Positions 8,862 to 12,020 of a stretch of DNA of 34,520 nucleotides are shown piece after piece. The notes below the pieces were generated by a model, which ran no database searches, was not told the origin of the DNA, and worked only from the letters and a program-made list of their open reading frames with translations. Position numbers and translations under genes: made by a program. Numbering within the stretch: the first letter of the stretch is position 1; every line of letters begins with the position of its first letter. This DNA comes from Syncephalis plumigaleata (Eukaryota > Zoopagomycota > Zoopagomycetes > Zoopagales > Piptocephalidaceae): assembly GCA_025201365.1 (NCBI GenBank), contig JAIXMF010000127.1, positions 1 through 34,520 on the forward strand. The letters run 5' to 3'.

Positions 8862-9076
8862 CAGTGTTTTTCCATCCAATTAACACTGTTAGCCTTTTGT
8901 TTTACTAATATATAACGGTTATGTTAATACGTATTTGGATGTGAAAGCGATAATCCTCAACTGCTAGAGCAATGACAATTAGTCAATAATAATAGCAATG
9001 CGATAATGATGTTAACAATTATGCAAGATTATTTATTAATAAAAAGCAACAATGTTAATTGGTTGGAATAGTCTTG
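8862..9076. mobile_element. MITE-like element, copy A (215 bp)
   Basis: Bounded by TA dinucleotides at 8860-8861 and 9077-9078. The left end CAGTGTTTTTCCATCCAATT and the reverse complement of the right end (CAAGACTATTCCAACCAATT) form an imperfect terminal inverted repeat, best matched over the CCAATTAACA core. The right 90 bases closely match 11930-12020 and, inverted, the left part of 28915-29142. There is no coding capacity. TA duplications and such ends are typical of Tc1/mariner-derived MITEs. Confidence 0.6.
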
Positions 9077-9655
9077 TAGTAATGTAGAGATGACGATTAG
9101 AATATCGATGGATTTCAGTAGAGTGTAAGCGAGTGTGCGTGATAACAGTGCTAATTGATGACGCTTATAATTCATTACTAAGTGATGTGAATGAGATGTT
9201 GATTGATTTACGGCAAGGTGATGGTGGTATTGATCGTGGTTAATGGTTGACACGGATAGCCAAGTATTCAAATGACAAACGATGACGATACAGGCAACAT
9301 AAACACCTATTACTTGCAGATAAATGGCTGCGTATTGACCGGTGTGTTCCACTGAGTGGTGTGGCATAATCGTCAGATCTACAGGCAATGTCCAAGCAAT
9401 GGATGAAATGGTTGTCGAGGTCGACTTCATTAAAGCGGTATCTTCATGGAACAGTAGTCTCAATTGACTATTAAGCTGCTGGATCGATGTTTGTATCGAT
9501 TCCCTTAGTAATGTATCCAGTAGTTGATGATGGCCACTATTGTATAGGAATGTGAGGGTAGGTGATGGTGTACGGGTCGATTGATCGGTATCATTTGATT
9601 GAAGATGTTTGACGAACCATTCAGTAAAATTGGCCGGAATAACTAGAATGGCCAT
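9029..9655 (-). CDS. Unrecognised open frame, possible membrane protein
   Basis: A 208-codon frame starting MAILVIPANFTEWFVKHL. I recognise no family. It has a polar middle (STSTTISSIAWTLP) and a hydrophobic stretch near residue 115 (VIGVYVACIVIVCHL) that could be a membrane segment. That stretch could instead be intron, since CAA|GTAATA fits a donor there and the following 140 bases are His/Ser-rich low-quality coding. The last 15 residues and the stop are encoded inside MITE copy A, starting exactly at its right terminus. Additional 5' exons between 9660 and 9950 are possible but I could not define them. Treat as hypothetical. Confidence 0.3.
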   Translation of the reverse strand: MAILVIPANFTEWFVKHLQSNDTDQSTRTPSPTLTFLYNSGHHQLLDTLLRESIQTSIQQLNSQLRLLFHEDTALMKSTSTTISSIAWTLPVDLTIMPHHSVEHTGQYAAIYLQVIGVYVACIVIVCHLNTWLSVSTINHDQYHHHLAVNQSTSHSHHLVMNYKRHQLALLSRTLAYTLLKSIDILIVISTLLQDYSNQLTLLLFINK

Positions 9656-10142
9656 GTAGTCATCTTTATTTAATAGCTTTTACAACTAATTATCCATCAT
9701 TAGCAATCGATTATTTAGCGTATCAATACCTTCTTAGATTGTCTGTTCGTTACTTGGATTGTTTACACATCCTAACATTGTATTGACTAGTATGTTTATG
9801 TGCAATTGACCATTACATCGATGATAATGAATGGAATAATCATGTTAGTACTGATTTACATTCAGTCTATATTCATACACATGGTGTTCAATACAGTCAT
9901 TTCAATAGAATATAACCAGCCATGATGGTTGTAACAGGTGTACGCGTCATTATTGATGGAGCATTCTGAAATGATGATGATGTGTAGATTCATACAATTG
10001 ACAGATCATGCGGTTACACGACATGACAGACATTCATTCACAGTTCATCTAATTGGTACTAATTTGTTCGGTGTACTACCTACAAGCAATCGATTGACAA
10101 CTCGGTTATACCAATATCCACCATCATCACTATCATCTCGAC
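9656..10142. other. Intergenic region upstream of the micro-exon gene
   Basis: Divergent spacer between the uncertain minus-strand frame and the plus-strand peptide gene. Small frames such as the one from 9938 are Met/Ser-rich chance frames. No repeat or RNA gene is visible. Confidence 0.5.
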
Positions 10143-10149: not shown

Positions 10150-10182
10150 CAAGCACTTTTTGACACACTCGACTTGCCATCT

Positions 10183-10235
10183 TCATACTCTACTCTACTC
10201 TACTCTCTCACTACTTTCTACTCTTGTTCTAGTCA
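10183..10235 (+). promoter_or_regulatory. CT-rich leader with TACTC repeats
   Basis: Repeated CTACT/TACTC pentamers and a CT-rich run lie between the TATA box and the start codon. Pyrimidine tracts at this place mark transcription start regions of highly expressed fungal genes, consistent with the biased codons of exon 1. Confidence 0.45.
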
Positions 10236-10273
10236 ACTTATCTGTCTATCCATTCCACTAGGCCAACATCAAC

Positions 10274-11667
10274 ATGAAGTTCTCTGCCGTTATCGCTATT
10301 GCCGTCGCCATTGTCGCTCTCACCAGTTTGGTCGCCGTTGAAGCTAGTCCCGTCCTGGAACGTCGTGGTATGTCTGGCTGTGACCCTATCAATTGATGTA
10401 CTAATCGTAGCCTATTGTTTCATTGTCCACCGATGATTAGCGGAAAATCGTAAGCTCATGTATATTAAATGGTTGTTTTGACACGCTAATCACATCATAA
10501 TATTTATTCTATCTGTCAAATTGTTAGCTCAAGGCGGTAAGCTATCCTATTGACCATAACAAGTACTATGCTAACAGTAGTATACATCAAAATCATGTGT
10601 GATTACCATTTCAAGACGTAAGTTAATATTATGGCTGTAATTTATGAAACTCTAATACTAATACGGTCCATGATCCACATATGTTCTTGTATGATAGGAT
10701 GTAAGTAATCATTCGGGTTGTGATTTATGAAACACTAATAATAATACGGCTACTAATCCACATATGCTCCTGTATGATAGGCTGTAAGTTATCATTCTAA
10801 TCGTAATGAACGAGTACTAATTACAACGTGGCGTATGATTCTATGTTCCTGTATGGCAGTTTGTAAGTTACTATTCTGACCGTAATGTATGGCACTAATT
10901 ACAACGTGGCGTATGTTCCTATGTTTCTGTACGATAGGTTGTAAGTTATCATGGGATTGTGATAAATGATTACTAATTACAACGTGATGTATGATCCTAC
11001 ATTTCTGTATGGCAGCTTGTAAGTTAATATTCTGACCGCAATGAACGAGTACTAATCACAGTATGACGCATGATCCACGTATGCTTGTATACGATAGGAT
11101 GTAAGTTACTATTCTGATCGTAATGTATGGCACGCTAATCACAGCATGGCGTATGATCCTATGTTTCTGTATGGCAGCTTGTAAGTTACCATTCTGACCG
11201 TAATGAGCGAGTACTAATCACAGTATGACGCATGATCCACGTATGTTTGTATACGATAGGGTGTAAGTTACCATTCTGACCGTAATGTATGGCACGCTAA
11301 CTATAGTATGGCACATGATCCATATATGTTTTTGTATGACAGCCCGTAAGTTACCATTCTGGCCGTAATGAATGGGGCACTAATTACAATGTGGCGTATG
11401 ATTCTATGTTTCTGTACGATAGGATGTAAGTTACCATTCTGACCGTAATGAACGAGTACTAATCACGCTATGACGCATGATCCATATATCTTCCTGTATG
11501 ACAGCCCGTAAGTTACTATTCTGACCGTAATGGACGAGTACTAATCACAATACTATTTACATCATCTGGATAACAGCGTCATTAAGCAGTAAGATAATAA
11601 TCCACGATAATCATACTCATACTAATCCATTATGATTACAGAACAAGACAAGGACATCATCAAGTAG
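10274..11667 (+). CDS. Secreted peptide precursor assembled from single-codon micro-exons
   Basis: Exon 1 (10274-10367) encodes a signal peptide (MKFSAVIAIAVAIVAL... ending VEA before SPVLERR) with a dibasic Kex2-like site. Then come exons of 9 bases (10441-10449), 9 (10528-10536), 2 (10616-10617), eleven of exactly 3 (10698, 10781, 10860, 10938, 11016, 11098, 11178, 11260, 11343, 11423, 11505), 12 (11577-11588), and a last exon from 11642. Full inclusion stops at 11583-11585 and gives a 51-residue precursor whose part after RR is AENPQGDDAFVLDLGPDPRH. Skipping exons 4-15 keeps frame to TAG 11665-11667 and gives AENPQGASLSKQDKDIIK after RR. Exon 1 codons resemble the HSP70 bias, suggesting high expression. 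Every internal intron has GTAAGT and CTAAT/CTAAC. I know no homologue. A peptide signal or effector is inference; the splice structure is read directly but unverified by RNA. Confidence 0.6.
10618..11576 (+). repeat. Tandem array of twelve near-identical introns with 3-base spacers
   Basis: Introns 10618-10697, 10701-10780, 10784-10859, 10863-10937, 10941-11015, 11019-11097, 11101-11177, 11181-11259, 11263-11342, 11346-11422, 11426-11504 and 11508-11576 are 69-80 bases long. Each starts GTAAGT, most continue as a TACCATTCTGACCGTAATG-type block, each has a CTAAT/CTAAC about 40-50 bases before its end, and each ends in GATAG, GGCAG, GACAG or ACAG. They are clearly copies of one another. From 10781 on two subtypes alternate, one ending GATAG and the other GCAG/ACAG, so the true duplication unit is a dimer of about 155-165 bases. 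Confidence 0.85.
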
Positions 11668-11801: not shown

Positions 11802-11929
11802 TATGTCCTATTCTGACCATCACATCCATAGTTAATGTTCAAGCATATCAATCGTTTAATACGGTCATTATACTTGACAAATCATTACATTATTGATACA
11901 CATTGTCAGATCACTAGTACAGCTATACT

Positions 11930-12020
11930 AACTCAATAATAATAGCAATGCGATAATAATGTTAACAATTGTGCAAATTTATTTATTAATAGAAAATTGT
12001 TAATTGGTTGGAAAACCCTG
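11930..12020. mobile_element. MITE fragment, copy B (right end only)
   Basis: From TCAATAATAATAGCAATGCG to the terminus ...GGTTGGAAAACCCTG followed by TA, about 90 bases match the right part of copy A and the inverted left part of copy C. No left terminal repeat is seen upstream within 250 bases, so this is a truncated copy. It lies directly 3' of the CENP-W-like gene and probably in its 3' UTR. Confidence 0.6.

Follow-up and report, generated by a model that had tools for sequence, protein, structure and literature searches.

Background

Several kinds of genes built from very small exons have been described. In the available part of the account of schistosome micro-exon genes (MEGs), the signal peptide lies mostly in a long 5′ exon, the central part consists mostly of micro-exons and the encoded proteins are relatively small; in MEGs 26-32, the length of 26 of the 33 micro-exons is divisible by 3 (PMC4671649). 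The bicycle genes of aphids, as the accessible portion of the report presents them, are a large and divergent set of putative secreted effectors with ~17 exons on average; many of the internal exons are unusually small, and almost all share a single phase (PMC9168663). Ultra-short exons are also on record: according to the excerpt at hand, 3 nt was the smallest exon characterised experimentally until 2015, and a 1-nt exon was reported in Arabidopsis APC11 (PMC4674806). For fungi, the available text states that functional micro-exons were previously undescribed in filamentous species and that fungal micro-exons had earlier been tested experimentally only in Schizosaccharomyces pombe; it describes one micro-exon switch in the Trichoderma transcription factor Xlr2 (PMC11121469). 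Syncephalis plumigaleata belongs to the Piptocephalidaceae, within the Zoopagales. It is named, in the section seen of one paper, in a binning context (PMC7865070). Among the matches listed from the open-licence PMC literature, we found no description of serial single-codon exons or of the gene family reported here.

Results

Structure of the window gene

The window is the whole stretch of S. plumigaleata DNA that was analysed, 34,520 nucleotides long. In this stretch an earlier note had read a run of single-codon exons, built by duplication of an intron-plus-codon unit. The architecture it described is confirmed: positions 10618-11576 hold 12 tandem introns of 69-80 nt, each with GTAAGT, with CTAAT or CTAAC and with a TAG or CAG end (12/12 for all three), and the 11 spacers, each exactly 3 nt, read GAT GCT TTT GTT CTT GAT CTT GGT CCC GAT CCC as previously given. 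Additional micro-exons, absent from that note, flank the array at 10441-10449, 10528-10536, 10616-10617 and 11577-11588. The predicted parts of the gene are the following.

10180-10273, + strand: 5′ flank or 5′ UTR common to the family (similarity search in the own genome)
10274-10367, + strand: exon 1, 94 nt, signal peptide MKFSAVIAIAVAIVALTSLVAVEASPVLERR, ends in phase 1 (splice model, translation)
10368-10440, + strand: intron GTATGT...TAG
10441-10449, + strand: micro-exon CGGAAAATC, phase 1, 9 nt
10450-10527, + strand: intron GTAAGC...TAG
10528-10536, + strand: micro-exon CTCAAGGCG (exon 3), phase 1, 9 nt
10537-10615, + strand: intron GTAAGC...AAG
10616-10617, + strand: 2-nt exon AC after the AAG 3′ splice site, shifting phase 1 to phase 0
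10618-11576, + strand: array of 12 introns (69-80 nt) and 11 single-codon exons
10618-10697, 10701-10780, 10784-10859, 10863-10937, + strand: array introns 1-4
10941-11015, 11019-11097, 11101-11177, 11181-11259, + strand: array introns 5-8
11263-11342, 11346-11422, 11426-11504, 11508-11576, + strand: array introns 9-12
10698-10700, + strand: single-codon exon GAT (Asp)
10781-10783, + strand: single-codon exon GCT (Ala)
10860-10862, + strand: single-codon exon TTT (Phe)
10938-10940, + strand: single-codon exon GTT (Val)
11016-11018, + strand: single-codon exon CTT (Leu)
11098-11100, + strand: single-codon exon GAT (Asp)
11178-11180, + strand: single-codon exon CTT (Leu)
11260-11262, + strand: single-codon exon GGT (Gly)
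11343-11345, + strand: single-codon exon CCC (Pro)
11423-11425, + strand: single-codon exon GAT (Asp)
11505-11507, + strand: single-codon exon CCC (Pro)
11577-11588, + strand: terminal coding exon CGTCATTAAGCA, stop TAA at 11583-11585 (splice model)
11589-11641, + strand: 3′ UTR intron GTAAGA...CAG (sequence)
11642-11667, + strand: downstream exon, reading ...KQDKDIIK* in phase 1 if the array is skipped (by hand)

Joined in this way, the exons would give the product MKFSAVIAIAVAIVALTSLVAVEASPVLERRAENPQGDDAFVLDLGPDPRH. The RR at the end of exon 1 is a candidate Kex2-type site, going by the motif. Skipping of the whole array in the window also leaves an open frame (...QGASLSKQDKDIIK*), and since the frame is not closed, a short isoform of the window gene is possible by this route. 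An 83% direct repeat, at 8964-9045 and 11914-11995, brackets the window gene. The window flank 9118-10036 is 91% alike in locus L040, and the matching flank of L002, a close copy of the window gene, is 90% alike in L003, L004 and L040. The Hsp70 encoded in the window has its highest similarity, among the best 120 of 7994 matches, to a JGI protein (96%); of the named fungi, Syncephalis fuscata (89%) and Thamnocephalis sphaerospora (87%) come next.

Genome-wide extent and spacing

The 5′ part of this architecture and the array recur in the genome of S. plumigaleata. With 10180-10370 as the query, all 40 scored matches (the best 40 of 198 first-look candidates) showed 88-100% identity, and a 33-base pattern taken from the start of exon 1, with at most 3 mismatches, matched the genome 167 times vs 0 for the reversed control. 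The window array as the query gave at least 169 matching pieces, many of them overlapping, from the best 40 of 112 first-look candidates. Counted by hand among the matches listed, there are at least 38 array clusters besides that of the window, each represented by at least one analysed locus; 20 of them were taken with 1.5-kb flanks only, and many genes were seen only in part.

A strict motif (GTAAGT, 55-85 bases, YAG, a spacer, GTAAGT) was then counted in the 32.6-Mb assembly, with the reversed pattern as the control. It matched 1899 times with a 3-nt spacer (control 47) and 89 times with a 6-nt spacer (control 30). With spacers of 0, 2, 4 and 5 nt the matches numbered 15, 13, 18 and 5, vs 97, 42, 88 and 52 in the control, which is thus exceeded at 3 and 6 nt only among the six spacer lengths tested (0 and 2-6 nt). 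A chance run as the reading of the window array is rejected by the excess at 3 nt. The assembly contains close collinear pairs of loci, which suggests that both haplotypes may be partly present; the 1899 matches therefore count some loci twice, and neither the motif counts nor the exon-1 counts can be read as numbers of genes in a haploid set. When IMG/VR was scanned for three donors in succession with spacers of 3 nt, 2 contigs had a single match each: in the first (L049) a tandem repeat of the intron-plus-codon kind was not found, and in the second (L050), which contains repeats of 42/84/126 nt, the consensus units as printed are without GTAAGT.

The spacer lengths bear directly on recursive splicing, one of the two alternatives that the earlier note had named. 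The units would then be stepping stones by which one long intron is removed piecewise, with no coding residue left, and the regular spacing of the donor and acceptor pairs would fit such a process. However, recursive splice sites join AG directly to GT, and the 0-nt spacer stays far below its control (15 vs 97), whereas the 3-nt spacer dominates and is free of TAA and TAG. The arrays do not have the 3′ splice site abutting a 5′ splice site that defines this class, and we regard recursive splicing as having almost no likelihood here.

In their content the 3-nt spacers resemble codons. TAA and TAG are missing from all 1899 strict 3-nt spacers, while ~37 are expected by our own arithmetic from the positional composition of 849 units, which are not independent of each other; the reversed pattern in the same test matches 16 times. 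The 849 distinct units of the analysed loci contain 2 stop triplets vs 25.8 expected. Both are TGA and lie in the second arrays of L037 and L039, two closely alike loci, where the arrays are read in another phase; the frame of the second array of L039 runs NGLEKTADKMRSIARAIQRKIKEYEGKE... before a stretch where the model missed introns.

Such stop avoidance is difficult to reconcile with the idea that 10537-11576 is a single long intron in which the array forms a tandem satellite, its splice signals being passengers of the duplicated unit. The likeness of the window units would agree with a satellite: the intron cores are 71% identical, vs 51% for shuffled letters, and tandem repeats are called there. 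Translation by hand agrees as well, as the phase 1 frame stays open when the array is skipped. Nevertheless, a satellite stands against the complete lack of TAA and TAG (0/1899), and also against the gene models, the database proteins and the divergence data described below.

Gene models and predicted products

Gene models spanning exon 1 and the sequence up to the 3′ UTR intron were obtained with a dynamic program whose scoring takes in donor, branch point, acceptor and intron length and nothing else. The donor of the 3′ UTR intron was located by similarity, and the tail ATCATCAA(G/A)TAG was a landmark in the first run; an initial anchor caught only the window and L002 and was hence loosened. 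The scoring threshold was loosened twice, and GC donors were added, after the translations had been seen, but the reading frame was never used in scoring. The first run, before the loosening, had already given the 15 clean peptides in the same form up to the stop (L034 and L043 there without a tail), those of L032, L035, L036 and L037 included.

Exon 1 was found in 31 of the 40 loci submitted and the tail also in 25, of which 15 gave clean models. In these, a signal peptide that closes with RR precedes an exon of 2 or 5 nt and a series of single-codon exons, and the terminal exon holds the stop. In all 15, the exons after exon 1 are 2-15 nt long, mostly 3 nt, and a single one of them, the 2- or 5-nt exon just before the run, is not divisible by three; this exon changes the phase from 1 to 0. 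Translation of all 15 meets its first stop within the terminal exon. Read in phase 0, the clean models have no stop among their 295 array codons (close copies included). In the other frames of the joined arrays, stops are found in 35/280 triplets for the +2 frame and in 0/280 for the +1 frame; since the +1 frame is also stop-free, an open frame by itself carries less weight than the stop avoidance seen across the genome. Open frames recovered by a frame-blind procedure are nonetheless a second argument against a satellite. GTAAGT is present in 270/309 donors of the clean models, a figure biased upward because the scoring favours GTAAGT.

The 10 unclean models out of 25 reflect missed introns or a false anchor in some cases and real lesions in others. 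L005 has a false anchor and was open in an earlier run; the tail anchor of L014 is doubtful; in L031 and L040 the scoring missed the intron of the 2/5-nt exon, where TTTCAAG is seen by eye; L039 carries an insertion; and L042 and L046 have an irregular 2-nt exon and terminal exon. The frame is broken around exon 1 in L006 and L007, and the acceptor for the 2/5-nt exon was not found in L009; these three loci may be pseudogenes or assembly errors. Exon 1 without a tail inside the locus was obtained for L011, L012, L018, L019, L027 and L041, and no exon 1 lies inside L008, L010, L013, L015, L016, L017, L020, L021 and L033. Excluded before the count were the loci contained in L031-L037 (L023-L026 and L028-L030) as well as L022, which is distinct from L034 but very similar to it, had no tail in an earlier run and served as a pair partner. 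L014, L018 and L040 form a subfamily with another exon-1 end (VEAKP) and additional early exons.

Across 12 selected models, exon 1 encodes a conserved MKFSA...EASP.L.RR, a predicted signal peptide as judged by eye. The pattern C...CC...C is found in 8 of the 15 clean products (L032, L034, L035, L037, L043, L044, L047 and L048, of which L043 and L044 are close copies), for example in TCSDGYHYVWSWETEQCCPNIGSGPCYDV (L034), GPCIKISNRCCYENSDKPGTLFCDDR (L044) and DCKKDEYFHLDDNKGGKCCKIDDNNLDCRYD (L048). The splice-model product of the window is without Cys, as are those of L002, L003, L004, L036 and L038; that of L045 has two. A protein search with 11 mature peptides, the signal part being masked, gave no match at E up to 10 (174 candidates).

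Database proteins

A protein search with the family returned 21 proteins: 15 named S. plumigaleata, one further from ncbi, four from jgi and one from ena. From residue 32 onward, each was tested for runs of residues that lie each on its own 3-nt exon in the analysed loci. Three proteins contain such single-codon-exon runs, of 24 (P0124), 18 (P0121) and 6 residues (P0122), vs 3-5 reached by five shuffles of each. The best runs of the other 18, several of which are encoded outside the analysed loci, are 3-4 residues vs 2-7 in shuffles (P0138: 4 vs 3, one above). The exon-by-exon map places P0121 on L019 and P0124 on L011, two loci of contig C362, and in each case the protein extends over most of the array; both differ from the splice models near the array starts, and P0122 reads on into an intron after its 6-residue run. 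The match between proteins and models is agreement between predictions, not proof of splicing; as such, it also counts against a satellite. Five metagenome proteins from jgi and ena (P0135, P0136, P0138, P0140 and P0141) have a related signal exon, with MVDATPVLDRRG... in several, and four of them seem to read into intron 1; they may be relatives of the family elsewhere.

Within the arrays, P0121 omits a Cys before GTAGGT, a Gly before GTGAGT and Thr-Pro before GTAAGC, and P0124 omits a Cys, a Pro and one of two adjacent Cys before GTAGGT (which of the two is ambiguous) as well as an Arg before GTAAAT. These omissions are consistent with a variant of the single-codon-exon reading, compatible with it, in which frequent skipping would let one gene produce a mixture of peptides. 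Any 3-nt exon can be skipped with the frame kept, and the donor type is linked to the codon, GTAGGT following a Cys codon in 31/59 units. However, the omitted codons may stem from the annotation method; P0121 and P0124 do contain some codons that precede GTGAGT, GTAGGC, GTAAGC and GTACGT; and CC recurs in the products of different arrays, which suggests that both Cys are used. Frequent skipping thus appears rather unlikely to us. As a separate observation, GCAAGT follows TGG in 4/4 units of the analysed loci.

Divergence of the arrays

In seven close pairs of loci, the splice 9-mers differ at 11/1258 positions vs 277/9747 in the rest of the introns (p=5e-6); the micro-exons differ at 21/533 and are not below the introns. 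A split of the pairs made after the counts had been seen separates two kinds. In the three collinear pairs L036/L038, L043/L044 and L034/L022, the micro-exons differ at 1/282 vs 134/5267 in introns (p=0.015), or at 3/338 vs 150/6214 when L005/L006 is added (p=0.09). In the three pairs whose units have been gained, lost or shifted (window/L002, L003/L004 and L045/L048), the micro-exon differences are higher than those of the introns, 18/195 vs 127/3533 (p=5e-4), and misaligned units may inflate them. The window gene has 11 single-codon exons after its 2-nt exon and the close copy L002 has 13; with all 3-nt exons counted, L045 has 19 and L048 has 31. Such unequal codon numbers between close copies indicate that whole codons have been gained and lost.

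In the second arrays of L039 and L037 the similarity between introns is close to background. The intron cores are 54% identical in L039 (shuffled 51%) and 53% in L037 (shuffled 50%), and yet the modelled exons are 3 nt in 30/32 and 22/24 cases, respectively; we read the two longer exons in each as containing introns missed by scoring. An array with intron similarity near background level looks old, with the exon size having outlasted the intron sequence. This speaks against a satellite and also against the decaying, intron-derived satellite that the earlier note had offered as its other alternative, and so do the splice sites, which change less than the remainder of the introns. Given the diverged introns with 3-nt exons in L039 and the spacers without TAA and TAG, the tandem satellite or minisatellite class was rejected, and we consider it a very improbable explanation of the window array.

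The second arrays of L037 and L039 are neighbouring arrays that use another intron phase; the peptide they encode is, as far as it was read, basic and devoid of Cys. The gene in L039 (C193) measures 5164 nt from exon 1 to the tail vs 2990 nt in its close copy L037, and an insertion of ~2.2 kb interrupts its first array. In L041, an over-extended model downstream of the gene contains a zinc-knuckle-like and a protease-like stretch, presumably as in an LTR retroelement, going by these motifs.

Discussion

The exact 3-nt spacing, the stop avoidance, the open frames of frame-blind models, the Cys pattern and the agreement with three database proteins support the earlier reading of a single-codon exon run from a duplicated intron-plus-codon unit, with splicing itself predicted from sequence; the alternatives then proposed fare worse. 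We assign a probability of about 0.92 to the window locus being a genuine single-codon-exon gene, one of a large family in S. plumigaleata, with the array as the part that would encode the mature peptide.

In the route we propose, exon 1 would encode the signal peptide with its final RR, and an exon of 2 or 5 nt would change the phase from 1 to 0. Every 3-nt exon thereafter would add one amino acid, and the terminal exon of 9-15 nt would supply the stop. The product would be a small preproprotein; that it is secreted, cut behind RR and held by disulfide bonds among its Cys residues is deduced from sequence only, and any role of such peptides in the life of S. plumigaleata, which parasitises other fungi, would be hypothetical. 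As a donor, a branch point and an acceptor are present in every intron of ~80 nt, splicing would proceed by intron definition. Simultaneous binding at both ends of a 3-nt exon is hardly feasible, from which we infer a stepwise removal of the introns; this would be sequential, probably 5′ to 3′. The U1 and U5 snRNA genes were located in the genome, at C340:646534-646698 and C1:2629628-2629738. The arrays gain and lose whole intron-plus-codon units, by which residues are added or removed without frameshift.

More tentatively, and at clearly less than even odds, these genes may represent a class in which exon equals codon. One codon would be added per splicing step, in the 5′ to 3′ direction, and residues could be singly skipped, duplicated or lost. 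A single locus could in this way yield a combinatorial set of small secreted peptides, many of them rich in Cys, and the inclusion of a residue could depend on how strong its donor is (many Cys codons are followed by GTAGGT).

If the single-codon-exon reading is true, the micro-exon gene idea is pushed to its limit, the codon, with ~1900 strict 3-nt spacers in one fungal assembly. The arrays would also be a test of how the spliceosome handles dozens of consecutive exons too short for binding at both ends, and the peptides could evolve residue by residue without frameshifts. In addition, there seems to be a blind spot in annotation: 3 of the 21 family proteins show single-codon-exon runs, many others being encoded outside the analysed loci.

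Introners and spliceosomal twin introns are known cases of many related introns in one fungal genome; introner elements are scattered over unrelated genes and bear signatures of insertion. In contrast to these, the related introns of the S. plumigaleata arrays analysed here stand head to tail in one gene family, with a codon between each. The ultra-short exons covered by the available excerpt show that the spliceosome can splice an exon of 1-3 nt; those exons are isolated, whereas the S. plumigaleata ones stand in serial runs (PMC4674806). The micro-exon of Trichoderma Xlr2 is also fungal but single, not serial, as the accessible text has it (PMC11121469). With the bicycle genes, the S. plumigaleata genes share the large divergent family and the small exons in one phase. 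However, the bicycle internal exons are in phase 2, and the available portion of the report mentions no single-codon exons for them (PMC9168663); in our clean models, the single-codon exons are in phase 0, and in the second arrays of L037 and L039 they are in another single phase (introns in phase 1).

The schistosome MEGs are similar in architecture, on which this comparison is based, having the signal peptide in the 5′ exon and central micro-exons mostly divisible by 3. In the part of the MEG account available, micro-exons are described as <36 bp (PMC4671649), whereas every exon in the S. plumigaleata runs is exactly 3 nt long, equals one codon and has the same phase as its neighbours. With a signal peptide in the 5′ exon and micro-exons that are shorter than 36 bp and mostly divisible by 3, the S. 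plumigaleata family falls structurally within the micro-exon gene idea, with its exons at the codon limit.
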